IMG/VR virus record: IMGVR_UViG_3300009285_006183
Span: 1-23,126 of that record
Reading direction: 5' to 3' (one strand)
DNA from: a virus
Length of the DNA: 23,126 nt
Position 1 is the first letter of the stretch, and each line of letters opens with the position of its first letter. Positions 1 to 18,331 of this stretch are shown here, piece after piece. A program made the translations under genes and the position numbers. The notes below the pieces were generated by a model. It did no database searches. It had not been told where the DNA came from and saw only the letters and a list, made by a program, of their open reading frames with translations.

Positions 1-207
1 ATAGGCCCAATTGGTACCAAATTGGAACTCCATCGTAATTCCCGTTGCCACCCCCATCGCAAAATTAATCCCAAAGAGCACGCCCCAATACTGTGTCATC
101 TGTTTCCAAATTTCGCGGCCCGTCATCACATAAACGGTTTCCATGATGCCCAGCAGCACGGACAAACCCAGCGTCAGCGGCACAAAAATAAAGTGATACA
201 TCCATTG
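1..207 (-). pseudogene. cydA: cydA fragment (cytochrome bd ubiquinol oxidase subunit I)
   Basis: On the minus strand this stretch reads without a stop through [16 protein letters not shown], then an IMETVYV segment, and ends in [11 protein letters not shown]. That is the conserved N-terminal part of CydA, the quinol-oxidising, heme-binding membrane subunit of cytochrome bd oxidase, roughly residues 15-85 of a protein of about 450-520 residues. The frame leaves the window at base 1. Towards the N terminus the similarity stops at about base 207, where an in-frame TAG (210-208) and the first CTAAAGGTA repeat begin, so the first helix and start codon are missing. The fragment is clearly richer in G+C than all neighbouring DNA. 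It is bacterial core metabolism, not a phage gene: a truncated host gene at a junction, or a chimeric assembly. The family call is very sure; the biological reality of the junction is not. Confidence 0.85.
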
Positions 208-734: not shown

Positions 735-773
735 AAAAAACTCTGGTTATCTAAAATATGATAACCAGAGTTT
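735..773 (-). terminator. Rho-independent terminator after the zinc-ribbon gene
   Basis: AAACTCTGGTTATC (738-751) and GATAACCAGAGTTT (760-773) make a perfect 14-bp stem with an 8-base loop. Read on the minus strand, the stem is followed by a run of T (complement of 735-740). It lies 16 bases beyond the TAA of the 790-1134 gene and should end the minus-strand operon. Confidence 0.8.
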
Positions 774-789
774 GAAAACAAAGTTAAAG

Positions 790-1134
790 TTATTTGTGCA
801 ACATTTCAGAAATTTCGTCATCTATAATATCTAGCAATTCATCAACTATATTTCCAAAGTGTACTTCATCTAATTTAAGATTTCCATGAAAAGTGATATT
901 ATCTGAAATTGCATCTTCAAGGACTCTTGTAATTCTTTCTTTTATTGTTTCTAATTTCCTTTCTACTGTTTTCACATTTTCCAATTTGACATGTTCAATA
1001 GCATCGGATGTTTCGTCAAATGGTATGACTGTAATATATTTGTCATTATAACATCTATTACATAATATTATTTTGACGTTATCCGACCAGAAATAATCTA
1101 TTTTTTTTGTGTATCCACAGTCTTTGCATTTCAT
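790..1134 (-). CDS. Small zinc-ribbon protein, 114 residues
   Basis: The function is not recognised. The protein starts MKCKDCGYTK and has two CxxC pairs, CKDC near residues 3-6 and CNRC near 26-29, the usual layout of a small zinc ribbon. The rest is charged and probably helical (residues about 45-75), ending in acidic sequence. The ATG at 1134 is preferred because GGAAAGAGAG lies just upstream; an in-frame TTG at 1152 would place the ribosome binding site inside the gene. Leader and trailer are nearly identical to those of the next small gene (1214-1372), which also begins M-x-CK, so the two are probably duplicated cassettes. It is the last gene before a terminator. A role as a regulator or RNA/DNA-binding protein is possible but unproven. 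Confidence 0.7.
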   Translation of the reverse strand: MKCKDCGYTKKIDYFWSDNVKIILCNRCYNDKYITVIPFDETSDAIEHVKLENVKTVERKLETIKERITRVLEDAISDNITFHGNLKLDEVHFGNIVDELLDIIDDEISEMLHK

Positions 1135-1161
1135 CTTTTTCTCTCTTTCCAAAAAAGTTAA

Positions 1162-1198
1162 AAGTAGACTCTGATATTTATTTTATCAGAGTCTACTT
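1162..1198 (-). terminator. Intergenic hairpin, terminator or attenuator
   Basis: AAGTAGACTCTGATA (1162-1176) and TATCAGAGTCTACTT (1184-1198) form a perfect 15-bp stem with a 7-base loop. On the minus strand it is followed by TTTTAACTTTTTTGG, so it looks like a terminator, yet the ribosome binding site of the next gene follows directly with no clear promoter. It may be a partial terminator, an RNA processing or stability element, or a regulated attenuator. Confidence 0.65.
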
Positions 1199-1213
1199 GA
1201 CAATGAAATAAAG

Positions 1214-1372
1214 TTACTCTAAAGTAATCAGAGACGACATAATGTCAATGTAACAACGTTGACAGATCACGTCACCAGACAAATTTCTATAGTTTTGAAT
1301 GGTCTCATTCTTGCAAACGGAACAAGTTCTTACACGCTCTTCTCTGGTTTTTTTGATTTCTTTGCATTCCAT
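1214..1372 (-). CDS. Tiny zinc-ribbon protein, 52 residues
   Basis: A complete 52-residue frame starts MECKEIKKTR, has two cysteine pairs CSVC (residues about 17-20) and CQRC (about 37-40), and ends SSLITLE. The spacing of the pairs fits a single zinc ribbon and little else. The ATG at 1372 is preceded by GGAAAGAGAAAAAT. It sits between two hairpins in the minus-strand operon, and its flanks match those of the 790-1134 gene almost base for base, so the two zinc-ribbon genes look like copies that diverged. The function is unknown; phages carry many such small zinc-binding proteins that bind host proteins or nucleic acid. The gene is short and easily missed, but frame, ribosome site and motif agree. 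Confidence 0.65.
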   Translation of the reverse strand: MECKEIKKTREERVRTCSVCKNETIQNYRNLSGDVICQRCYIDIMSSLITLE

Positions 1373-1399
1373 ATTTTTCTCTTTCCAAAAGAAGTTAAA

Positions 1400-1438
1400 A
1401 AGAGACTCTGTATATAATTATTATATACAGAGTCTCTT
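1400..1438 (-). terminator. Intergenic hairpin, terminator or attenuator
   Basis: AAGAGACTCTGTATATAA (1400-1417) and TTATATACAGAGTCTCTT (1421-1438) form a perfect 18-bp stem with a 3-base loop, followed on the minus strand by TTTTTAACTTC. It begins 14 bases after the stop of the 1453-1914 gene. Its outer arm (AGACTCTG/CAGAGTCT) is shared with the hairpin at 1162-1198, while the inner arm differs but still pairs. Confidence 0.65.
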
Positions 1439-1452
1439 GACAAGAAATAAAG

Positions 1453-1914
1453 TTACTTAGAAGTCAAAACTTTTGCAATCTTTTTTGACTCATCCTCTGA
1501 AAGATAGTCGTTTGCACCAACTCTTGGTTTGATAATCGGAAGTACAAGTTTAGCAACTTTGTTTCCGTCAATTTCATGGACATACAAGAGCTTTCCTTGA
1601 CGATGTGAAAGCTTCCTCTCTTCCAGTCTGCAAAATATAGAATAGAATGTATTCCCAAACTTGTTCTTGATGTCTTTCATCGTTACGTCTATTTCTTTCC
1701 TATTGCAATCAAGGATGTGTGCAACGACTTGACTAGCCAACGATCCAGTTTCAATGTGATAAGCATCAAATGTATCTCTTATCGCTTTTGGCTTAGTATC
1801 CTTGACATCCACTTTCTTGACATCCACTTTCTTGATAGTATCTGACTTCAGCGCTATTTTAATCTTATCTGTCACTTTACTTTTCTTTCTTTCCAAAAAT
1901 TCTTTAACTTTCAT
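1453..1914 (-). CDS. Basic protein, possible winged-helix regulator
   Basis: The function is not recognised. The 153-residue protein has a lysine-rich N terminus (MKVKEFLERKKSK onwards), a repeated KKVDVKKVDVK segment at about residues 29-39 encoded by a perfect tandem 15-bp repeat (1801-1815 and 1816-1830), and a compact C-terminal part from about residue 50. The latter (VTMKDIKNKFGNTFYSIFCR, then LEERKLSHRQGKLLYV) reads like a winged helix: an S/T-x2-DI helix, a recognition helix and a wing with the turn RQGK. It is the first gene of the minus-strand operon, next to a control region with a 20-bp palindrome, which suits a DNA-binding regulator; this is inference. The ATG at 1914 has a weak purine-rich site (GAAAGTGAGAAAG) upstream. 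Confidence 0.65.
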   Translation of the reverse strand: MKVKEFLERKKSKVTDKIKIALKSDTIKKVDVKKVDVKDTKPKAIRDTFDAYHIETGSLASQVVAHILDCNRKEIDVTMKDIKNKFGNTFYSIFCRLEERKLSHRQGKLLYVHEIDGNKVAKLVLPIIKPRVGANDYLSEDESKKIAKVLTSK

Positions 1915-9651: not shown

Positions 9652-9672
9652 TTACCTTGAATGGAGGATTTA

Positions 9673-10314
9673 GTGAAATACGAAATACCTAGGATATGGG
9701 AAAATGAACCTTGCTATATTATTGGAGGTGGTTGGAGCTTAAAAGGGTTTGATGTCTCTATACTTAAAAACAAGAATATAATTGCTATAAACAATGCTTT
9801 TAAACTAGCGGATTTTATTCAATATTGTTGGTTTGGCGATTTTCAATGGTACACGTGGAACGAAAACGATATTACGGCTAGATTTTTAAGGTTGTCCCCT
9901 CCATTTAATTTAATATCATGTCATCCTAAATTTGAAAAACACAATCAAATTCGTTATGTACAAAGAACTGGAGGTAATGGGATTAATAGAACTCCAAATA
10001 CAGTATATTGGAATTATTGTAGTGGTTTTAGTGCAATCAATTTTGCGTATCATTTAGGGTCAAATCTAATCATCCTCTTAGGGTTTGATATGAAACCGAA
10101 TCCTATATCGCCATTAGACAATAATTATCATAATGAGCATCAAGTTAAATTAAGGAAGGCGTATAATCCATACCTTTCTTATTTAAGGTCGGTAGAATCA
10201 ATAAAAAAAGATATTGATGAATTGGGGATAATAATTTTAAATGTAACTAAAGATAGCGGCATACCTAATGATATTTTTAAATGGGTTTCTATTGAGGAAG
10301 TGATTAATTTATGA
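9673..10314 (+). CDS. DUF115/MptE-like protein, first gene of the sugar island
   Basis: A 213-residue protein with a Rossmann-like start: IWENEPCYIIGGGWSLKGFD (residues about 8-27), then IIAINNAFKLADFIQYCWFGD and a later strand NLIILLGFDMK. This matches the DUF115/MptE-like group, found in flagellin-glycosylation Maf proteins and in phage genes, where the fold binds a nucleotide-linked substrate. A sugar-transfer role is likely from context but the exact reaction is not known. The start is taken at the GTG at 9673, because GGAGG (9663-9667) lies five bases upstream; an ATG at 9661 is in frame but has no ribosome site. The gene's 3' end overlaps the next start in an ATGA, so the pair is translationally coupled. 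Confidence 0.7.
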   Translation: MKYEIPRIWENEPCYIIGGGWSLKGFDVSILKNKNIIAINNAFKLADFIQYCWFGDFQWYTWNENDITARFLRLSPPFNLISCHPKFEKHNQIRYVQRTGGNGINRTPNTVYWNYCSGFSAINFAYHLGSNLIILLGFDMKPNPISPLDNNYHNEHQVKLRKAYNPYLSYLRSVESIKKDIDELGIIILNVTKDSGIPNDIFKWVSIEEVINL

Positions 10315-10961
10315 TAAATGATGATAAGGTATCTGTTATTTGTGTTCTAAAAAGAGGGGGTGTTTATCGTCAATCCTTTGTTAAAAATTTAAGGGATATG
10401 GTAACTAAACATTTAAGCTTCCCCCATGAATTTGTGTGCCTAACAGATATGATTTCTCCGTTTTCCAGGCCTTTATTGGATAATTATTATAAGTGGTGGA
10501 GTAAAATTGAAGCCTTCCGTATAACTGGCGCTGTTATATATTTTGATTTGGATACCGCAATTTTCAAATCTATTGATTCTATGGCTAAGAGTCTTCTTGA
10601 GGGAAAGAATAAAGGACTTAATGTGATGTATATGCTACATACCTTTAGGAACTCTTTCAAAAATACGGGTGAGTGGAGTAGTAGTTTTATGGCGTGGTCT
10701 GGTGATTTTAAATGGTTATTTAACGAATTTAATGAAAATGAGGATGTAGATAAATACCAGTGGGAACAAAAATATATTATTGATAAATTACAAGGCCGTA
10801 ACATTCCAATTTTATCAATACAAGGGCTTGTTAAAGGGAAAATCACAGGATATAAGCATTATACGATGAGCGATGAAGAAATAAAAAAAATGAATGTTAC
10901 AGTGGCATGTTTTCATAACAAACAGAATCATAAGGAGGTTTGGGAACATGGTAAATCTTAA
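10311..10961 (+). CDS. DxD glycosyltransferase-like protein, copy 1
   Basis: This 216-residue protein opens with KVSVICVLKRGGVY (a beta-strand and loop typical of GT-A glycosyltransferases), then KWWSKIEAFR and YFDLDTAIF (residues about 77-85). DLD is the DxD motif that binds the metal and nucleotide sugar in GT-A enzymes such as GT8. The later MAWSGDFKWLF may form the acceptor-side loop, and VACFHNKQNH ends the conserved part. It shares every one of these blocks with the protein at 11135-11821, so the two are paralogs. The donor and acceptor are unknown. The start at 10311 overlaps the previous stop by four bases. An additional small gene overlaps its 3' end. Confidence 0.72.
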   Translation: MINDDKVSVICVLKRGGVYRQSFVKNLRDMVTKHLSFPHEFVCLTDMISPFSRPLLDNYYKWWSKIEAFRITGAVIYFDLDTAIFKSIDSMAKSLLEGKNKGLNVMYMLHTFRNSFKNTGEWSSSFMAWSGDFKWLFNEFNENEDVDKYQWEQKYIIDKLQGRNIPILSIQGLVKGKITGYKHYTMSDEEIKKMNVTVACFHNKQNHKEVWEHGKS

Positions 10962-11142
10962 AGACGCTACAATAACTTTTAAGATAACAGGAATTTTAAA
11001 GGAGACAATTCTAATAACAGTTCATATTAAAGGTTATAGATGGTGGAGAATTAAGTCTTTTATAGCGAAATATTTAATCCGATTAGGTTGTTGGATGGCT
11101 AATTTACCTATTGTTTTTGAAAATAATAAAACAAATGATTAG
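10948..11142 (+). CDS. Hypothetical protein, 64 residues, between two paralogs
   Basis: The function is not recognised. The protein starts MVNLKDATITFKITGILKET and has a mixed hydrophobic and basic middle (ILITVHIKGYRWWRIKSFIA) followed by KYLIRLGCWMANLPIVFEN. The tryptophan pair and the alternating basic and hydrophobic residues would suit a peripheral membrane protein, but no clear transmembrane helix is present. The ATG at 10948 follows AAGGAGG (10932-10938) nine bases upstream, a strong site, so it is probably translated. It overlaps the 3' end of the first glycosyltransferase-like gene and the start of the second, filling the exact gap between the two paralogs. Confidence 0.6.
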   Translation: MVNLKDATITFKITGILKETILITVHIKGYRWWRIKSFIAKYLIRLGCWMANLPIVFENNKTND

Positions 11143-11821
11143 TATAATCTGTGTATTAAAGACAGGTGGAGATTATGATAAAAGGTATGTTTTTGCCCTT
11201 TTAAATGCCTGTAAAAAATATATCAATGAGAATTTTGCGTTTAAATGTTTTACAGATGATGAAAATTTTCTTAAAGACCCTGATGAGGGCTCAATTTTAA
11301 CCTACATAACAAATAAAAAGATTCTTTTCTCGATGATTAAGTTGGAGAAGGGATATAAAGGATGGTGGAGTAAGTTTGAAATATTTAGAAATAAAGGAAT
11401 TAATCTGTATTTTGACCTTGATACGGTTATTTTTTCAGGTTTAGATGAAATTATTCAAATTGTAAAGGGGTTAAAAGATACTGAATTTCTTGCAATGAAA
11501 AGGCTTAATCCTTTAAGATGGGAAAGGGAAGGAATGTTCACTTCTGGAATTATGGGTTGGAATGGAGATTTTAGATTTATGTTTGATGATTTTCGTTATG
11601 AAAATGCACTTGGACCCTCTATTCGTGGAGATGCAGATATTATTTATAAAATGTTAAAACATCGAAATATTATTATTCAATATCTTCAAGACCAATTTCA
11701 AGGGCTATATAGTTATAAAAGACATTGTTTATGTAAAATCCCTGAAGACGCTAAAATAGTTTGTTTTCATGGAAAACCTAGGCCTCATGAGGTAGGGGGG
11801 GTATACTGGAATGAAATGTAA
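11135..11821 (+). CDS. DxD glycosyltransferase-like protein, copy 2
   Basis: A 228-residue paralog of the 10311-10961 product. Shared blocks are ISIICVLKTGG (residues 2-12), YKGWWSKFEIFR (74-85), LYFDLDTVIF (91-100), GWNGDFRFMF and the closing KIVCFHGKPRPHEV. The DLD motif is intact, so both copies may be active. This copy has an extra segment before the DxD motif (SILTYITNKKIL). The start at 11135 overlaps the previous stop; an upstream ATG at 11111 would add MFLKIIKQ but has no ribosome site. Its 3' end overlaps the dehydrogenase gene. Two diverged copies suggest two linkages or two donors in one glycan, or an old duplication. The donor sugar is unknown. Confidence 0.72.
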   Translation: MISIICVLKTGGDYDKRYVFALLNACKKYINENFAFKCFTDDENFLKDPDEGSILTYITNKKILFSMIKLEKGYKGWWSKFEIFRNKGINLYFDLDTVIFSGLDEIIQIVKGLKDTEFLAMKRLNPLRWEREGMFTSGIMGWNGDFRFMFDDFRYENALGPSIRGDADIIYKMLKHRNIIIQYLQDQFQGLYSYKRHCLCKIPEDAKIVCFHGKPRPHEVGGVYWNEM

Positions 11822-12860
11822 AGCGGCAATACTCAATAAATTAAATGAGCCATTGATAATAGAAGATATTGAAATTCCTAATTTGCAATGTGGTCAGGTT
11901 CTTGTTCAAGTACGAGCCAGTAGTATTTGTGGAGCGCAAATAGGAGAAATAAATGGGGCTAAAGGTGAAGATAAATATTTACCTCACCTTTTAGGACACG
12001 AAGGCGGGGGTATTGTTTGTGATGTTGGTGAAGGCGTAACACAAGTAAAAATAGGAGACAATGTTGTTTTACATTGGAAAAAAGGATTGGGGATTGAGAG
12101 CCCTTTCCCTAAATATAAATATGATGGTGGAATAGTTGGAGGCGGAAGCGTAACAACATTTAATGAGTACGCAGTAATTTCTGAAAACCGATTAACGGTA
12201 ATTGATAAATCTATTTCTTTTGAGATAGCCGCCCTTATGGGATGTTCTGTGACAACAGGTTTAGGGTTGATTAATAATGAGGCACAATTAAAGATTGGGC
12301 AGTCTATTGTTGTAATTGGGTGTGGTGGGGTTGGGCTAAATGTAATTCAGGGAGCATTTATGGTATCTGCAAATCCTATTATATCTATAGATAAAAACCC
12401 ACATAAACTTTTTACCTCTCTTCAATATGGGGCTACTCATAATATTCTTGCTGTTGATTCAGATACAAATATTGAAGAGGAAGTTTGTAAAATTTTAGGG
12501 AAAAAAGGGGCTGATGTTGTTGTTGACTGCACTGGAGTAGTAGGTTTGATTAATCAAGGATATAGAATTACTTCTTCTAATGGTAAAATGATTTTAGTTG
12601 GGCAACCTAGACATGGTGAGAATTTAATATTTACTTCTATGAGAGACCATTATTGCGGGAAAACAATAATGGATTCTCAAGGAGGGTTGACGAACCCAAA
12701 TATAGATATTCAGAGGTATTTAGACTTATATTCTTTAGGAAAGCTACATTTAAACAAATTAATCTCTCAGAGTTTCCCCCTTCATCTTGTAAATGAAGCA
12801 ATAAATTTAATTCAAGATGGGATAGGCAATAAATATATTTTAAGAATGGATGGGGTATGA
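11811..12860 (+). CDS. Zinc-dependent alcohol/sugar dehydrogenase (MDR family)
   Basis: A 349-residue medium-chain dehydrogenase that probably oxidises or reduces a hydroxyl on a sugar or sugar phosphate with NAD(P). The zinc-binding catalytic core shows Cys40 (SSICGAQ), His63-Glu64 (LLGHEGGG) and Cys145 (MGCSVTTG), the normal ligand set. The nucleotide-binding fold has GCGGVG at residues 170-175, followed by ISIDKNPHKL. The four-cysteine structural zinc lobe of classical alcohol dehydrogenases is absent around residues 90-115, as in many sugar dehydrogenases. The substrate cannot be read from the sequence; neighbouring transketolase and short-chain dehydrogenase genes suggest a sugar precursor route. 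It overlaps the preceding gene by 11 bases and the next by four. Confidence 0.9.
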   Translation: MKCKAAILNKLNEPLIIEDIEIPNLQCGQVLVQVRASSICGAQIGEINGAKGEDKYLPHLLGHEGGGIVCDVGEGVTQVKIGDNVVLHWKKGLGIESPFPKYKYDGGIVGGGSVTTFNEYAVISENRLTVIDKSISFEIAALMGCSVTTGLGLINNEAQLKIGQSIVVIGCGGVGLNVIQGAFMVSANPIISIDKNPHKLFTSLQYGATHNILAVDSDTNIEEEVCKILGKKGADVVVDCTGVVGLINQGYRITSSNGKMILVGQPRHGENLIFTSMRDHYCGKTIMDSQGGLTNPNIDIQRYLDLYSLGKLHLNKLISQSFPLHLVNEAINLIQDGIGNKYILRMDGV

Positions 12861-13645
12861 TGGACAATATGAGATTATTTTTTAATGAAATTAATAGAAT
12901 TTATGATTGTAATTTGACTAAAATAAGAATTGGAAATAAACATGATGGGGGGTATATAGCTTTAAAGGAAATTTGTGAAAATATTAAAAAGGTATATAGT
13001 TTTGGGATAGGTGATGATGTTGGTTTTGAAATGGATTTTATTAAAAGATTTCCTGATTCAATTATACAATGCTTTGACCCTACAATAGATTCACTACCTG
13101 TTTACCCTCGTAATATGTTTTCAGAAAAAATATTATTTAAGAAAGCAGGGCCTAAATCTTTAATGAAAGTAGATGGTGGGTCGTTGTTAAAAATGGATAT
13201 TGAGGGCAATGAATGGGATAATATTAATTCATCAGAAATGTTTAATATAAAAAACCTTGTTAATTTTAACCAAATACTTATTGAGTTTCATATTTTAACC
13301 GTAGAGGCTAAAGTTGGAACGACTACATATTTCGATAAATTGTATTCTGATTTTGCCGTTGCGATAAACGATAGTTTATTTAATAGTTATTACAGAGTGA
13401 TGAATCATCTGAATAAATTCTTTTATATTTTTCATGTGCATCCGAATAATTCTCTCCCTAAAGTTACCATTCAAGGTTATACATTCCCCCCTTTAATTGA
13501 ATTAAGTTTAGTTAGAAAAGGTTTGGTTGATATTGTTTATGATACCCATACTGAATTCCCTGTAGAAGATTTAGATTTCCCTAATAAGACAGATAGACCA
13601 GATATTCTTCATTTTTATCCTTTAGGAGGTATTATTGATGAATGA
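12857..13645 (+). CDS. FkbM-like methyltransferase
   Basis: A 262-residue protein that probably transfers a methyl group from S-adenosylmethionine to a sugar hydroxyl. RIGNKHDGGYIALKEI (residues about 24-39) precedes the SAM-binding strand VYSFGIGDDVGFE (46-58), and LLKMDIEGNEWDNI (110-123) is the very characteristic D-x-EG-x-E signature of the FkbM group. The C-terminal part (YRVMNHLNKFFYIFHVHPNN) ends in the F-H-x-H-P-N pattern often seen in phage members of the family. Its ATG overlaps the previous stop (ATGATGG), implying coupling. It also overlaps the transketolase gene by eight bases. O-methylation of a rare sugar would fit the island; the acceptor is inferred. Confidence 0.78.
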   Translation: MMDNMRLFFNEINRIYDCNLTKIRIGNKHDGGYIALKEICENIKKVYSFGIGDDVGFEMDFIKRFPDSIIQCFDPTIDSLPVYPRNMFSEKILFKKAGPKSLMKVDGGSLLKMDIEGNEWDNINSSEMFNIKNLVNFNQILIEFHILTVEAKVGTTTYFDKLYSDFAVAINDSLFNSYYRVMNHLNKFFYIFHVHPNNSLPKVTIQGYTFPPLIELSLVRKGLVDIVYDTHTEFPVEDLDFPNKTDRPDILHFYPLGGIIDE

Positions 13646-14375
13646 GATGAGTGAACGGTCAAAACAAATAAGAAGGGATACGATTGCATTATCTAAAGCA
13701 AATGGAGGGTATCATTATGGGGGTTGTTTTTCTATTGTAGAAATATTAATCGCTTTATTTGATTATACTATGAAACCTAAAGATAAGTTTATTCTTAGTA
13801 AAGGGCATTCGTGTTGGCCCTATTATGTTATTTTAAGAGAATTAGGGTATAATCCAAAGTTATTTGGGCATCCTACAAGAGACGAGAAAAATGGAGTTTA
13901 TTGTACTACTGGTAGTGAAGGGCATGGATTTCCTGTAGGAGTTGGTATGGCTTTAGCAAAGAAAATAAAAAATGAAGAAGGAATTATTTATGTGTTAATG
14001 GGAGATGGAGAGTGTCAAGAAGGGACTACTTGGGAATCTTTGTTAATAGCAGGAAAACACAAACTCGATAACCTTGTTGTGGTTATTGACAAAAACAAAA
14101 TACAAGGTTCTGATTATGTAAATAATATTCTTCCTATTGATGGAATTGAGAAGATTTTTCATTTTGCTGGTTGGGTTTCTTATGAAGGTGTGAATGGACA
14201 TTCTATTGATGAGCTTGTTACAGAATTTAGAAGTAGGGTGGAGGGGTATCCTCAATTAATAATAGCAAATACAGTTAAGGGTAAAGGCGTTAGTTTTATG
14301 GAGAATGAACCTAAATGGCACGCTTGTTGGCTTGATATTGAAAAGGAACAATTAGCTTTAAAGGAGTTACAGTGA
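13638..14375 (+). CDS. Transketolase N-terminal subunit, thiamine diphosphate domain
   Basis: The first half of a split transketolase, 245 residues. SKGHSCWPYYV (residues 54-64) and TTGSEGHGFPVGVGMALA (90-107) carry the histidines and glycines around the cofactor, and MGDGECQEGTTWES with Asn153 (VVIDKNKIQ) is the thiamine diphosphate and metal signature GDG-x(26-30)-N. The chain ends where the pyrophosphate-binding domain normally ends. Transketolase moves a two-carbon ketol unit between sugar phosphates, so it could make an unusual ketose or branched sugar here. The ATG at 13638 lies eight bases after GGAGG (13625-13629). Its partner follows directly, overlapping by four bases, and both are needed for a complete active site. 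Confidence 0.9.
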   Translation: MNEMSERSKQIRRDTIALSKANGGYHYGGCFSIVEILIALFDYTMKPKDKFILSKGHSCWPYYVILRELGYNPKLFGHPTRDEKNGVYCTTGSEGHGFPVGVGMALAKKIKNEEGIIYVLMGDGECQEGTTWESLLIAGKHKLDNLVVVIDKNKIQGSDYVNNILPIDGIEKIFHFAGWVSYEGVNGHSIDELVTEFRSRVEGYPQLIIANTVKGKGVSFMENEPKWHACWLDIEKEQLALKELQ

Positions 14376-14854
14376 GAAGGCAATTTGGGAAAACAATTAT
14401 TAAATTAGCCGAAAAAGATGAGAGAATTGTTTTAATAACGGGGGATGTTAAACAAGAAATGGATGAATTTATTAATAAATTTCCGTGTAGATTTTTTAAT
14501 CTTGGACTAACCGAACAAAGTATTATTAGTATCGTTGCGGGAATGGCGATAGAAGGGCTGAGACCAATTGTTTATTCGATAACCCCATTTTTAATTGAGC
14601 GTCCATTTGAGCAAATTAAAATTGATATTGACGAACAAAACCTTCCTGTAATATTAATTGGGAATGCGGATTATCCTACTCACGGGCCCACGCATAGACC
14701 TTTGAATGCAGAAGGCCTAATAGGGTTATTTAAAAATATTGATGGTTATTTTCCTCGTAATATGCAAGAGACAGAAAAAGCAATGATTGATGCCTACTTA
14801 ACTAAGAACCCTTCTATTATTTGCCTTAAAAAGGATGGAGTCCCCATATTTTAG
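14372..14854 (+). CDS. Transketolase pyrimidine-binding subunit, C-terminal domain missing
   Basis: The second half of the split transketolase, but only 160 residues. It covers the pyrimidine-binding domain: IVLITGDVKQ, then FFNLGLTEQSIISIVAGMAI with Glu48 in the place of the catalytic glutamate that activates thiamine, then RPIVYSITPFLIERPFEQIK and HGPTHRPLNAEGL. The usual split C-terminal subunit is about 300-330 residues with a further transketolase C domain; here the chain stops after KDGVPIF, and the next gene starts 9 bases later in an unrelated family. It begins at a GTG overlapping the previous stop. Since the C domain mainly helps dimer contacts and not cofactor binding, activity is possible but unproven. 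Confidence 0.85.
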   Translation: MRRQFGKTIIKLAEKDERIVLITGDVKQEMDEFINKFPCRFFNLGLTEQSIISIVAGMAIEGLRPIVYSITPFLIERPFEQIKIDIDEQNLPVILIGNADYPTHGPTHRPLNAEGLIGLFKNIDGYFPRNMQETEKAMIDAYLTKNPSIICLKKDGVPIF

Positions 14855-14862
14855 GAGAAGGT

Positions 14863-15579
14863 ATGGACAATTACAAAAAAGTATTAATAACAGGGGCAAG
14901 TAGAGGATTAGGTAAGGAGCTGGCGTATGTTTTTGCAAATAATGATTATGATTTGATTTTACATTCTAAAAGTACGGTTTTACCTGTAGTATATAGGAGT
15001 TTTCGATTTGATAGACAAAATACCCCAATTCATTTTGACCGTCTTTATGGAGATTTATATCTCTTTAAGACTGTAAAGGATTTAATAAAAATTGCTAAAG
15101 GGGGAAATATAAGTGTTTTTGTCAATAATGCCGCTATATATCTCAATGATTCAATTTCCAATATAACTTCTGAAAAGTGTAGGGAAATATTAGAGGTTAA
15201 TTTAATCGCACCTATTCTTTTAATTAAAGGTATTTGGGAAATATTTAAAGAAAAAAAAGAAGGAATAATAATCAATATCAATTCTACAGCGGGCAAATCT
15301 GGCTCTTTTGGAGAATCTCTTTATAGTGCATCTAAGCATGGGCTGGCCGGCTTTCTTAAATGCCTTCAATTTGAGGCCTCAGCATATAATATCCAGATTT
15401 TCGATGTATATTTAGGCGCAATGAAAACCGAAATGACACAACACAGAGAAGATGCTGAAAAGCTAATGAGGCCTTATGAAGTTGCAAAATGTATTTACTC
15501 TTCATGTTTGTCTGATGATATTGTTGCTTGTGGAACAACGAAAATTTCTGAAATTGTGATTAACAGGAGGGTTTATTAA
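14863..15579 (+). CDS. Short-chain dehydrogenase/reductase
   Basis: A 238-residue NAD(P)-dependent oxidoreductase of the classical SDR type. TGASRGLG (residues 10-17) is the dinucleotide-binding glycine motif, NNAA (88-91) stabilises the central sheet, and Ser141, Tyr154 and Lys158 (INSTAG ... YSASK) are the catalytic residues, all present. LGAMKTEMTQ follows in the position that closes over the substrate. A basic residue after the glycine motif is consistent with NADPH but does not prove it. In this cluster it probably reduces a keto sugar made by the transketolase or dehydrogenase. AGGAGAAGG stands ahead of the ATG at 14863. It overlaps the next gene by one base. Confidence 0.9.
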   Translation: MDNYKKVLITGASRGLGKELAYVFANNDYDLILHSKSTVLPVVYRSFRFDRQNTPIHFDRLYGDLYLFKTVKDLIKIAKGGNISVFVNNAAIYLNDSISNITSEKCREILEVNLIAPILLIKGIWEIFKEKKEGIIININSTAGKSGSFGESLYSASKHGLAGFLKCLQFEASAYNIQIFDVYLGAMKTEMTQHREDAEKLMRPYEVAKCIYSSCLSDDIVACGTTKISEIVINRRVY

Positions 15580-17246
15580 TGCAAATGAAATGTATTTGTG
15601 GATTTTCTAATTATAATTCTATAAATGATAGGGAAAGTTATAAAGTAACCTCTATGGGGGAAACTGTCATAGCGGATTATAAAATTGAATTTGGTTCATG
15701 TATTGATTGTGGTATAGTTCGTCAAATAAATGTCCCTTTTAATAATAACGAAGATTATCTTCAATTTTACCGAAATAAATATGAACCTGTTAACCCTTTA
15801 TATGTCGTAAAGAGTTACGAGCATGATAGGGAATTAGCAAAAATAAGATGTCAAAATTATGGGATTGGAAAAGTCGTTATTTCGACAATTAAGCCTCCTG
15901 AAAGCCCTTCTATTCAAAAAAATAAATATAGATTATTAAAAGGTAAACATAGGATAGGGCATGAAACCTTTATAAAAGGAGATATTATAGAGGTGTCTGC
16001 TAAAAGAATTGCTCAATTTATGGACAGGTTTGAGCTTATTGAGTCTATAAAACCTAAGCAAGAATTAAAACAGGAATTATCAATTCTTACTATGGAGAAC
16101 AAAGAAAGAATTTTAGATGTAGGTTCTGGAAGTGGGGCTTTTGTAGATGAATGTAGAGAATTAGGTCACGAGGCATTTGGGTGTGAAATATCTCATTATG
16201 ACTATGCAAAAAAAACAGATTATATTTATTACGACCAATTTGAAAATGTAAATTTTCCTACTGATTATTTTGACAAAATAACTTCTCATGATGTTATAGA
16301 GCATTCTTTAGAACCCGTAAAAATGATTATTGAGGCATTCAGAGTTTTAAAGCAGGAGGGGGAATTTATTGTAGATTATCCTAATTATTTTGTAGATGCT
16401 GGAAAACATCACTGGAAAAAAGAACATCTCTGGTATTTTTCAATAGAAGATTTGAAAAGGATTTTTGTAAAGGTTGGGTTTCATATTAAAGAAATAAAAT
16501 ATCCGATACCATCTAAAGCTACATTTTATTTAAAAAAACCAAGACAATTAAGAGTTAAGATTCTGTACCCCCCAGGTATTGGAGATTCATATTGGTCTAT
16601 AGTTAAAACACAAGCACTTCTAAAGCGTGAGAAATTAGATATTCCTGATATTTATATTGCGTGTCCTCGTGAGAAGGAGTTTGATGGGCATAAACGGGCA
16701 TTCCCATTTATTGAGATGTTCCCATTTCTCAATTCTACTAATGAAACTTTTGATAATAGCGATTCCAAAAGTAGAGGGATTTGGAATGAAGCCTATAAAT
16801 ATAAAGGCAGAACGATATTTAAAGATATATTAGGCTTCGATTATTTCGTTTCTTATAATGGACACCTTCGTTATGGAGAACAGATGGAAGAAATAGATTC
16901 TGATTTAGAGTGCAATTGGTTTCCACCTATATTTGTTTCTTTGGAGCAGGAAAGGTTTAAGTCAAAGTGTATTCAAAAATATGGGAAATACATCGTCTTT
17001 TATTTTGTCTTTCAAGGTACTTATGCTTATTGGACAAAAGAGTTCTCAGTAGAAAGTGTTATTCAGGCTATAAAAGAAATTACAATGAAAACAAATTATA
17101 CGCCTATATTTGCTGGTGCAATTTGGGACAATAAAAGAGACGACCATCTTAGTCTTGTTAGGCAAAGCATACCTAATTGCGTGGATTTAACAGGTCAAAC
17201 GACTGTTCCTCAATTATTCGGACTATTAAAGGGAGTGAGGCTGTAG
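15579..17246 (+). CDS. Zinc-ribbon methyltransferase fused to GT9-like glycosyltransferase, cut by a frameshift
   Basis: A 555-residue product with four parts. Residues 1-50 hold CxC and CxxC (Cys5, 7, 41, 44), as in zinc-binding N termini of sugar methyltransferases. Residues 114-157 are an inserted small domain (GKHRIGHETFIKGDIIEV and RFELIES) that resembles the 84-residue protein at 9343-9597. Residues about 175-310 are a class I SAM methyltransferase (ILDVGSGSGAF at 178-188, then SHDVIEHSLEP). From about residue 335 (VKILYPPGIGDSYWSIVKTQ) the chain looks like a GT9 heptosyltransferase. It stops prematurely at LLKGVRL; the natural continuation SEAVVGYPSGLTIVSG lies in the -1 frame (to 17464). 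Whether this is a programmed shift or an indel is open. It begins in a TAATG overlap after AGGAGGG. Confidence 0.82.
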   Translation: MQMKCICGFSNYNSINDRESYKVTSMGETVIADYKIEFGSCIDCGIVRQINVPFNNNEDYLQFYRNKYEPVNPLYVVKSYEHDRELAKIRCQNYGIGKVVISTIKPPESPSIQKNKYRLLKGKHRIGHETFIKGDIIEVSAKRIAQFMDRFELIESIKPKQELKQELSILTMENKERILDVGSGSGAFVDECRELGHEAFGCEISHYDYAKKTDYIYYDQFENVNFPTDYFDKITSHDVIEHSLEPVKMIIEAFRVLKQEGEFIVDYPNYFVDAGKHHWKKEHLWYFSIEDLKRIFVKVGFHIKEIKYPIPSKATFYLKKPRQLRVKILYPPGIGDSYWSIVKTQALLKREKLDIPDIYIACPREKEFDGHKRAFPFIEMFPFLNSTNETFDNSDSKSRGIWNEAYKYKGRTIFKDILGFDYFVSYNGHLRYGEQMEEIDSDLECNWFPPIFVSLEQERFKSKCIQKYGKYIVFYFVFQGTYAYWTKEFSVESVIQAIKEITMKTNYTPIFAGAIWDNKRDDHLSLVRQSIPNCVDLTGQTTVPQLFGLLKGVRL

Positions 17247-17464
17247 TGGGATACCCTTCTGGACTGACTATTGTTTCAGGAATGTTAAAAGCGAAAACCT
17301 TAATTATTTGGAATAATTATTATAATAAAGATTTTGCATGGTATTGTGTCCCTCCTTCTGTAAGAGAAAAAACATATTTTATTGAAAATACGAATGGCTT
17401 AAATCCACTAAAATTGACAAATAGAGTGGTAGAACTCATAAAATCGTACCCAAATACGTCCTAG
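17177..17464 (+). CDS. C-terminal part of the GT9-like glycosyltransferase, -1 frame
   Basis: The genuine homology starts at about base 17234, where KGSEAVVGYPSGLTIVSG continues the sequence lost from the 15579-17246 frame, and goes on through KTLIIWNNYYNKDFAWYCVP, SVREKTYF and the C-terminal helix. This is the donor-binding half of a GT9 glycosyltransferase. The shift point lies at A AAG GGA (17228-17234), which has the X XXY YYZ form of a -1 slippery site. The ATG at 17177 is in the right frame but its first 19 residues do not look natural and it lacks a ribosome site. If the shift is used, the complete enzyme has about 628 residues; if not, the gene is broken here. No strong stem follows the site. 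Confidence 0.65.
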   Translation: MRGFNRSNDCSSIIRTIKGSEAVVGYPSGLTIVSGMLKAKTLIIWNNYYNKDFAWYCVPPSVREKTYFIENTNGLNPLKLTNRVVELIKSYPNTS

Positions 17465-17517
17465 AGCTTCCTAGACGCATTCCTAACGATTTAAAATATG
17501 TTTTTAGGAGGAGGAAA
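17459..17517. promoter_or_regulatory. Short repeats and a weak hairpin before the 37-residue gene
   Basis: TCCTAGA occurs at 17459-17465 and 17469-17475 with the related TCCTAAC at 17481-17487, about one helical turn apart. CCTAA (17482-17486) can pair with TTAGG (17504-17508), which covers the start of the AGGAGGAGG ribosome site, so the next gene could be weakly gated. The stem is only five base pairs. Confidence 0.35.
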
Positions 17518-17631
17518 ATGATGATTAAGCTAGTAGGAATAACAACCGTGTTTTTACAAGATAAAAATAGAAAGGCTGTTCAATTAAGGGCAAAAATGCG
17601 GGAAAGAAATAATAAAGGGCAATTTACTTAA
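17518..17631 (+). CDS. Small hypothetical protein, 37 residues
   Basis: The frame reads MMIKLVGITTVFLQDKNRK, then an arginine-rich helix and ends ERNNKGQFT. It is preceded by AGGAGGAGG (17506-17514), the strongest ribosome site of the island; a start at the second ATG (17521) would be one residue shorter and gives better spacing. It lies alone between the glycosyltransferase and the sulfotransferase-like gene, seven bases before the latter. The basic C-terminal end with NNKGQF resembles the ends of small phage DNA- or capsid-associated proteins, but there is no assignable family. Its real translation is supported mainly by the ribosome site. Confidence 0.5.
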   Translation: MMIKLVGITTVFLQDKNRKAVQLRAKMRERNNKGQFT

Positions 17632-17638
17632 AAGGCAT

Positions 17639-18331
17639 ATGGTTATGAACACTAAAGAATTTGTAGCAAAGGGAATTTTAATAACTGGGTGTGCTAGAAG
17701 TGGAACTTCTTTAGTAGCAGGAATAATTAACCTTTGTGGTGCTTTTGGAGGTAAGATGAGGCCTCCAAATGTAAATAATAAAAAAGGGATGTTTGAGAAT
17801 ACAGTTATAACCCAAAATATAGTTAAGCCATTTTTAAAATCTATTGAGGCAGATACAATGGGACAAAACCCACTGCCCGACCCAATTAAAGTAAGAAGAA
17901 AAATAATATCAAATGAGAATGATTGGGCGTTACGTATTCTTAATGTATTGAAAGAAGAAGGGTATAAAAATAATTATTGGTTTTATAAAGGTGCGAAAAT
18001 GTGCTTGATGTGGGAAATGTGGCATTCTGCATTTCCTGATGTCAAATGGATTATTGTAAGGAGAGATAAACAAAAAATTATCGAATCTTGTCTTAGAACG
18101 TCATTTATGAGAGCATATAAGGATAGGCAAGGTTGGACTCAATGGGTTGATTGGCATGAAAAACGATTTAAAGAAATGTTGGAAAATAAGTTAAATGTAA
18201 CCGAAATATCATCTGAAAAGGTAATTCTTGGAGATTTAAGCGAAATTAAAACTATTGTTATCGAAACAGGTCTTTCTTATAATGAAGAGGCAATACGAAA
18301 TTTTGTTTCGCCTGAGTTATTTCATCTTTAA
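17639..18331 (+). CDS. Sulfotransferase-like P-loop protein
   Basis: A 230-residue protein whose ITGCARSGTSLVAG (residues about 15-28) is the 5'-phosphosulfate-binding P-loop (G-x-x-RSGTS) of the sulfotransferase fold. VKWIIVRRDKQKIIESCLRT in the middle resembles the second PAPS-binding loop with the conserved Arg and Ser in R-x(6-8)-S spacing. KGMFEN between them and the C-terminal FVSPELFHL fit distant phage and bacterial members of the family. It would transfer sulfate from PAPS to a sugar hydroxyl, or may use a related activated donor. No PAPS synthesis gene is in the window, so the host would supply the donor. The start is ATG 17639, with AAAAGG before it; ATG 17645 is also possible. It is the last gene of the island. 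Confidence 0.72.
   Translation: MVMNTKEFVAKGILITGCARSGTSLVAGIINLCGAFGGKMRPPNVNNKKGMFENTVITQNIVKPFLKSIEADTMGQNPLPDPIKVRRKIISNENDWALRILNVLKEEGYKNNYWFYKGAKMCLMWEMWHSAFPDVKWIIVRRDKQKIIESCLRTSFMRAYKDRQGWTQWVDWHEKRFKEMLENKLNVTEISSEKVILGDLSEIKTIVIETGLSYNEEAIRNFVSPELFHL

Follow-up and report, generated by a model that had tools for sequence, protein, structure and literature searches.

Three minus-strand genes that lie left of the packaging genes of a tailed phage raise the question of how genes 2 and 3 come to be expressed when a terminator-like hairpin stands directly before the ribosome site of each, and why the sequence around these hairpins recurs nearly unchanged between genes that are themselves barely alike. 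The analysed virus record, which at its full length of 23,126 bases we call the window, encodes on its plus strand, starting at position 2422, the head, packaging and tail functions of the phage; to the left of these genes are three minus-strand ORFs, each closed by a hairpin. The features on which the argument turns are the following.

2139-2112, minus strand: TTGACA-16-TATCAT, candidate promoter for the leftward unit, 11/12 consensus, ranked first on the minus strand
1914-1453, minus strand: gene 1, a 153-aa ORF of no known family
1359..1464, minus strand: cassette copy 1, with the gene 1 end, trailer TAACTTTATTTC-TTGTCAAG, hairpin, leader TTTTAACTT..TTTTGGAAAGAGA and the gene 2 start
1438-1400, minus strand: hairpin 1, after gene 1, intrinsic-terminator-like, 18-19 bp, then TTTTTAAC
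1372-1214, minus strand: gene 2, a 52-aa ORF with C17xxC20 / C36xxC39
1121..1225, minus strand: cassette copy 2, with the gene 2 end, trailer, hairpin, leader and the gene 3 start
1198-1162, minus strand: hairpin 2, after gene 2, intrinsic-terminator-like, 15 bp, then TTTTAAC
1134-790, minus strand: gene 3, a 114-aa ORF with C3xxC6 / C26xxC29
738..792, minus strand: gene 3 end and terminal hairpin 3, with trailer TAACTTTA and without the leader
773-738, minus strand: hairpin 3, after gene 3, 14 bp with a T6 tail, TTTTTTAG

The sequence-only reading had placed three hairpins and three minus-strand genes here, and both the coordinates and the genes were confirmed on the sequence. All three stems are perfectly paired over 14-19 bp (for hairpin 1 the terminator scan counts 18 pairs, and the repeat search gives two 19-nt arms with a single central nucleotide) and lead directly into a T-run, so that each combines the stable stem and the adjoining T-run by which intrinsic terminators are recognised. 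Their folding energies are -24.2, -21.1 and -20.0 kcal/mol for hairpins 1, 2 and 3 (z -7.4, -6.6 and -5.8), and none of the shuffled sequences was as stable as any of them. Nowhere else in the 23-kb window does a hairpin of 10 bp or more run into a T-rich tail. A search of Rfam returned only chance matches below the gathering scores.

Second, we find that the two inner hairpins sit in a duplicated unit. Aligned to each other, cassette copies 1 and 2 score 112, compared with a mean of 17 and a maximum of 35 among 2000 nulls sampled from the same dinucleotide frequencies, and with a best score of 28 among 1374 other tiles of the window. The claim that they are nearly identical outside the stems holds: with the stems left out, both flanks still exceed all 5000 nulls (29 vs 25 upstream, 48 vs 34 downstream). 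The repeat sets in weakly some 9 nt ahead of the stop codon of the upstream gene and stops about 14 nt into the downstream ORF (ATGnAATGCAAAGA), and the distance from the hairpin end to the ATG is 27 nt in both copies, with the ribosome sites of genes 2 and 3 lying within it. Between the copies the stems differ by a one-pair T/A insertion and by a different A+T-rich upper stem. This had been read as compensatory change and hence as a sign of selection; both stems do still pair, but because only two related copies exist the differences only weakly suggest selection for pairing, and they would fit template-switch correction of palindromes as well. With two copies, recent duplication and selection are inseparable. 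We also considered an integron attC site, and rejected it on finding no GTTRRRY / RYYYAAC core sites on either strand at the three junctions, and translational masking, in which the trailer would pair with the next start codon; the fold hinted at such pairing, but the pairing is no better than in shuffled sequence.

Hairpin 3, which has no gene downstream, helps to divide the cassette into its parts. It keeps the stem core ACTCTG/CAGAGT and the trailer TAACTTTA; this trailer scores 24 against cassette 1 (9 of 5000 shuffles did as well) and is, the two cassettes aside, the closest to cassette 1 of the 1479 TAA sites in the window. Aligned over the whole gap, gap 2 and the hairpin 3 region show no significant similarity. 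Since hairpin 3 retains the trailer side only, trailer and hairpin appear to be tied to gene ends, as would fit a terminator, and the leader to gene starts.

The encoded proteins do not share this likeness. Genes 2 and 3 had been called zinc-ribbon genes, and each protein does contain two CxxC pairs; neither gave a family match above the curated cut-off. Apart from an 18-aa match (BLASTP E 0.004) the two are barely alike, and given how similar the cassettes are, the likeness sits in the seam and not in the genes. The proteins begin with MECK (gene 2) and MKCK (gene 3), that is, with a common MxCK, yet Cys3 of gene 2 is not part of its own four-Cys set; the start of gene 2 thus seems to have been carried over with the seam. 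A structure model of gene 3 was too poor for use (pLDDT 53). Near the annotated start of gene 1 the leader TTTTTGGAAAGAAAGAAAA reappears at 1881-1899 on the minus strand as a 19-nt match within the gene 1 frame, with a GTG directly downstream, and the true start of gene 1 may be this nearby GTG.

Third, promoter-like sites point to transcription from upstream of gene 1. In a consensus-based sigma-70 scan with E. coli hexamer weights, which may not represent the host's promoter type, the best minus-strand site is the one at 2139-2112, upstream of gene 1, and the best plus-strand site (TTGACA-17-TACAAT, 2342-2370) falls where gene 1 and the packaging genes diverge, in the gap that separates them. 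The same scan found no conserved sense promoter-like site in the two gaps between the leftward genes, the best sense sites there coming only 39th for gap 2 and 321st for gap 1 in the minus-strand ranking, which bears out the earlier description of terminator-like hairpins directly before ribosome sites with no evident promoter. The second-ranked plus-strand site, TTGACA-17-TAAAGT at 1197-1225, starts in cassette 2 and would yield RNA antisense to gene 2; cassette 1 retains its TTGACA but not its -10. In addition, a repeat, ATAGCGTATNATAT, possibly an operator, occurs on the minus strand at 1996-2015 and 2110-2129, and one of the two overlaps the -10 of the candidate gene 1 promoter; its downstream copy lies inside a 31-nt match (93.5%) to two Klebsiella phage records.

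We believe, with a probability of roughly 55%, that genes 1-3 form one leftward operon whose expression is graded by readthrough of two internal terminators, and that the duplicated seam stems from the recombinational gain of gene 2. Transcription would start from the promoter near 2139-2112, and an intrinsic terminator would end each gene, hairpins 1 and 2 being internal and hairpin 3 final. Part of the RNA polymerase would pass hairpins 1 and 2, so that expression would fall stepwise from gene 1 to gene 3, with genes 2 and 3 each translated from the ribosome site within 27 nt past the preceding hairpin. The duplication of the roughly 100-nt unit, made up of trailer, terminator, leader and the beginning of the ORF, would reflect homologous recombination at this seam, through which gene 2 was acquired or can be exchanged; the two copies flank the gene 2 body (~1225-1358), and recombination between them would excise gene 2 cleanly. 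In favour of this reading are a repeat far beyond chance that ends close to the gene boundaries while genes 2 and 3 are barely alike, the MxCK start of gene 2, the trailer and stem core that hairpin 3 shares without the leader, the stable hairpins with their T-tracts, and the position of the best minus-strand promoter-like site upstream of gene 1, with none conserved in the gaps. Against it stand the short T-tracts after hairpins 1 and 2 (5 and 4 T, then AAC), and we found no relative in which the site is empty or the seam holds a different gene. Of the three mechanisms that the sequence-only reading had offered for such an arrangement, namely attenuation, antitermination and processing, attenuation by partial readthrough stays the simplest; for the other two, inspection by eye revealed neither a boxA-like nor any other specific element.

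The strongest challenge from known systems comes from the extended start-associated sequences (ESAS) of cluster K mycobacteriophages, inverted repeats that lie right upstream of start-associated sequences (SAS) and come with SigA-like promoters (PMC3203893; PMC11373665). By analogy, the inverted repeat here would be an operator over a promoter, and genes 2 and 3 would be transcribed separately under a phage regulator. TTGTCA is common to both trailers, and the hairpin arms contain TATAAT and TGATAAAAT; however, only 12 nt separate TTGTCA from these -10-like hexamers, the gap sites with allowed spacing are those ranked 39th and 321st and fall at non-matching positions, and hairpin 3 carries the same stem core with no gene behind it. 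We consider this reading unlikely. Control by antitermination seems less likely again: hairpins 1 and 2 would stop transcription until a phage factor allowed passage, delaying genes 2 and 3, and strong internal terminators behind one promoter are indeed the usual target of such systems, but inspection by eye shows no recognisable signal for it, gene 1 has no match among antiterminators or any other family, and its single-sequence structure model carries no confidence (pLDDT 35).

RNase III sites lie between the early genes of T7, and long perfect stems right before ribosome sites could similarly be cut by RNases, or protect 3' ends, at the junctions of genes transcribed together; with a T-tract after each stem, and with hairpin 3 closing the operon, we regard this role in processing or stability as improbable. 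More doubtful still is an old tandem duplication in which a whole small zinc-ribbon gene was copied with its flanks and the ORFs have since diverged. Two CxxC pairs in both proteins and their short common stretch speak for it, but the intergenic likeness would need to outlive the coding likeness, and DNA similarity ends 14 nt inside the ORF. The graded operon can tentatively be extended, though we think the extension rather unlikely, to a promoter-free seam for gene exchange, by which the phage would add or drop small operon genes that are expressed only by readthrough of the neighbour's terminator.

A search for the seam elsewhere was negative in every collection reached, which is uninformative and no refutation, because these collections contain no close relative. 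The exact cassette patterns have no true copy in IMG/VR; the single match fell within protein-coding DNA of an unrelated contig and was judged chance, and other scans were empty. No homologues of genes 1, 2 or 3 were found in viral_contigs, nor of gene 1 in genome_contigs, and a search of phage records gave nothing significant. Terminase relatives came from 32 viral loci and one MAG; identity does not exceed 52% even for the nearest, most of which belong to G+C-rich phages. None of these relatives has a hairpin pair with shared flanks, including the one closest in G+C, which has no hairpin pair. A whole-record search against 24 of the terminase relatives gave only short low-complexity matches.

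The seam shares its layout with several known systems. PeSLs, which Arbiol in 2010 and Comeau in 2014 are said to have described, are reportedly promoter-terminator composite motifs of T4-like phages. A citing paper presents them as units of stem-loop and promoter linked to gene shuffling (PMC4503421), and as characterised there they resemble our cassette in being short repeated intergenic units with a terminator-like stem-loop between small genes, and differ from it in that here no early promoter follows the stem-loop and only two copies exist. Run on 79 kb of T4, our hairpin-pair scan returned no pairs and so does not detect PeSLs there; it did detect, in Adephagia, terminator hairpins followed by similar ESAS blocks. 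In cluster K an inverted repeat immediately precedes a conserved start-associated sequence (PMC3203893); a later study interpreted these elements as SigA-like promoters that may include an operator (PMC11373665), and Microbacterium cluster EF carries sequences similar to the cluster K SAS/ESAS (PMC7302621). Our cassette likewise has a conserved ribosome-site sequence with an inverted repeat right upstream. However, ESAS contain a promoter and imperfect repeats in many copies genome-wide, whereas here a perfect repeat with a T-tract occurs in two promoter-less copies, and the sigma-70 scan found no inverted repeat with -35 and -10 at 17-18 bp. Two gene starts share the start-associated sequence, and the 19-nt match lies within the gene 1 frame. 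As the layout is common to PeSLs and ESAS and the promoter is missing, we see the cassette as a variant and not a member of either. Corndog gene 14, in a cluster O mycobacteriophage, lies between 17-bp direct repeats and is missing from relatives, and such repeat-flanked small genes have been explained by recombinational gain or loss (PMC4351075); gene 2 similarly is a small gene with direct repeats at its junctions, although here the repeat spans about 100 nt and includes a terminator and a leader. The seam around gene 2 seems to depart only modestly from the gene cassettes bounded by repeats that have been described in phages. If our reading is right, it would be a promoter-free form of the cassettes that phages use for swapping small genes, and a compact natural example of internal terminators setting expression levels inside one operon.

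Finally, other parts of the record deserve mention. Positions 1-205 (minus strand) hold the in-frame start of a host-type cydA, encoding cytochrome bd oxidase subunit I (Pfam E 1.5e-29), which matches a plasmid copy from Legionella adelaidensis at 84% identity; this segment has 48% G+C and ends abruptly at phage DNA of 29% G+C, the boundary being an integration junction or an assembly chimera. Adjoining it, 207-525 contains six same-strand copies of CTAAAGGTA, which has only one copy elsewhere; the copies are embedded in longer repeats, CTAACTAAAGGTAGG and TACCTAAAGGTA. They may be iterons or arm sites for a recombinase, and in their paired form have no match in IMG/VR. The roughly 8.7 kb that separate the capsid gene from the tail genes (9661-18331) encode glycan-type enzymes, namely a sialyltransferase-like protein, a zinc alcohol dehydrogenase, an FkbM-like methyltransferase, split transketolase halves, a short-chain dehydrogenase, a methyltransferase and a sulfotransferase, which is unusual cargo within a virion gene module.
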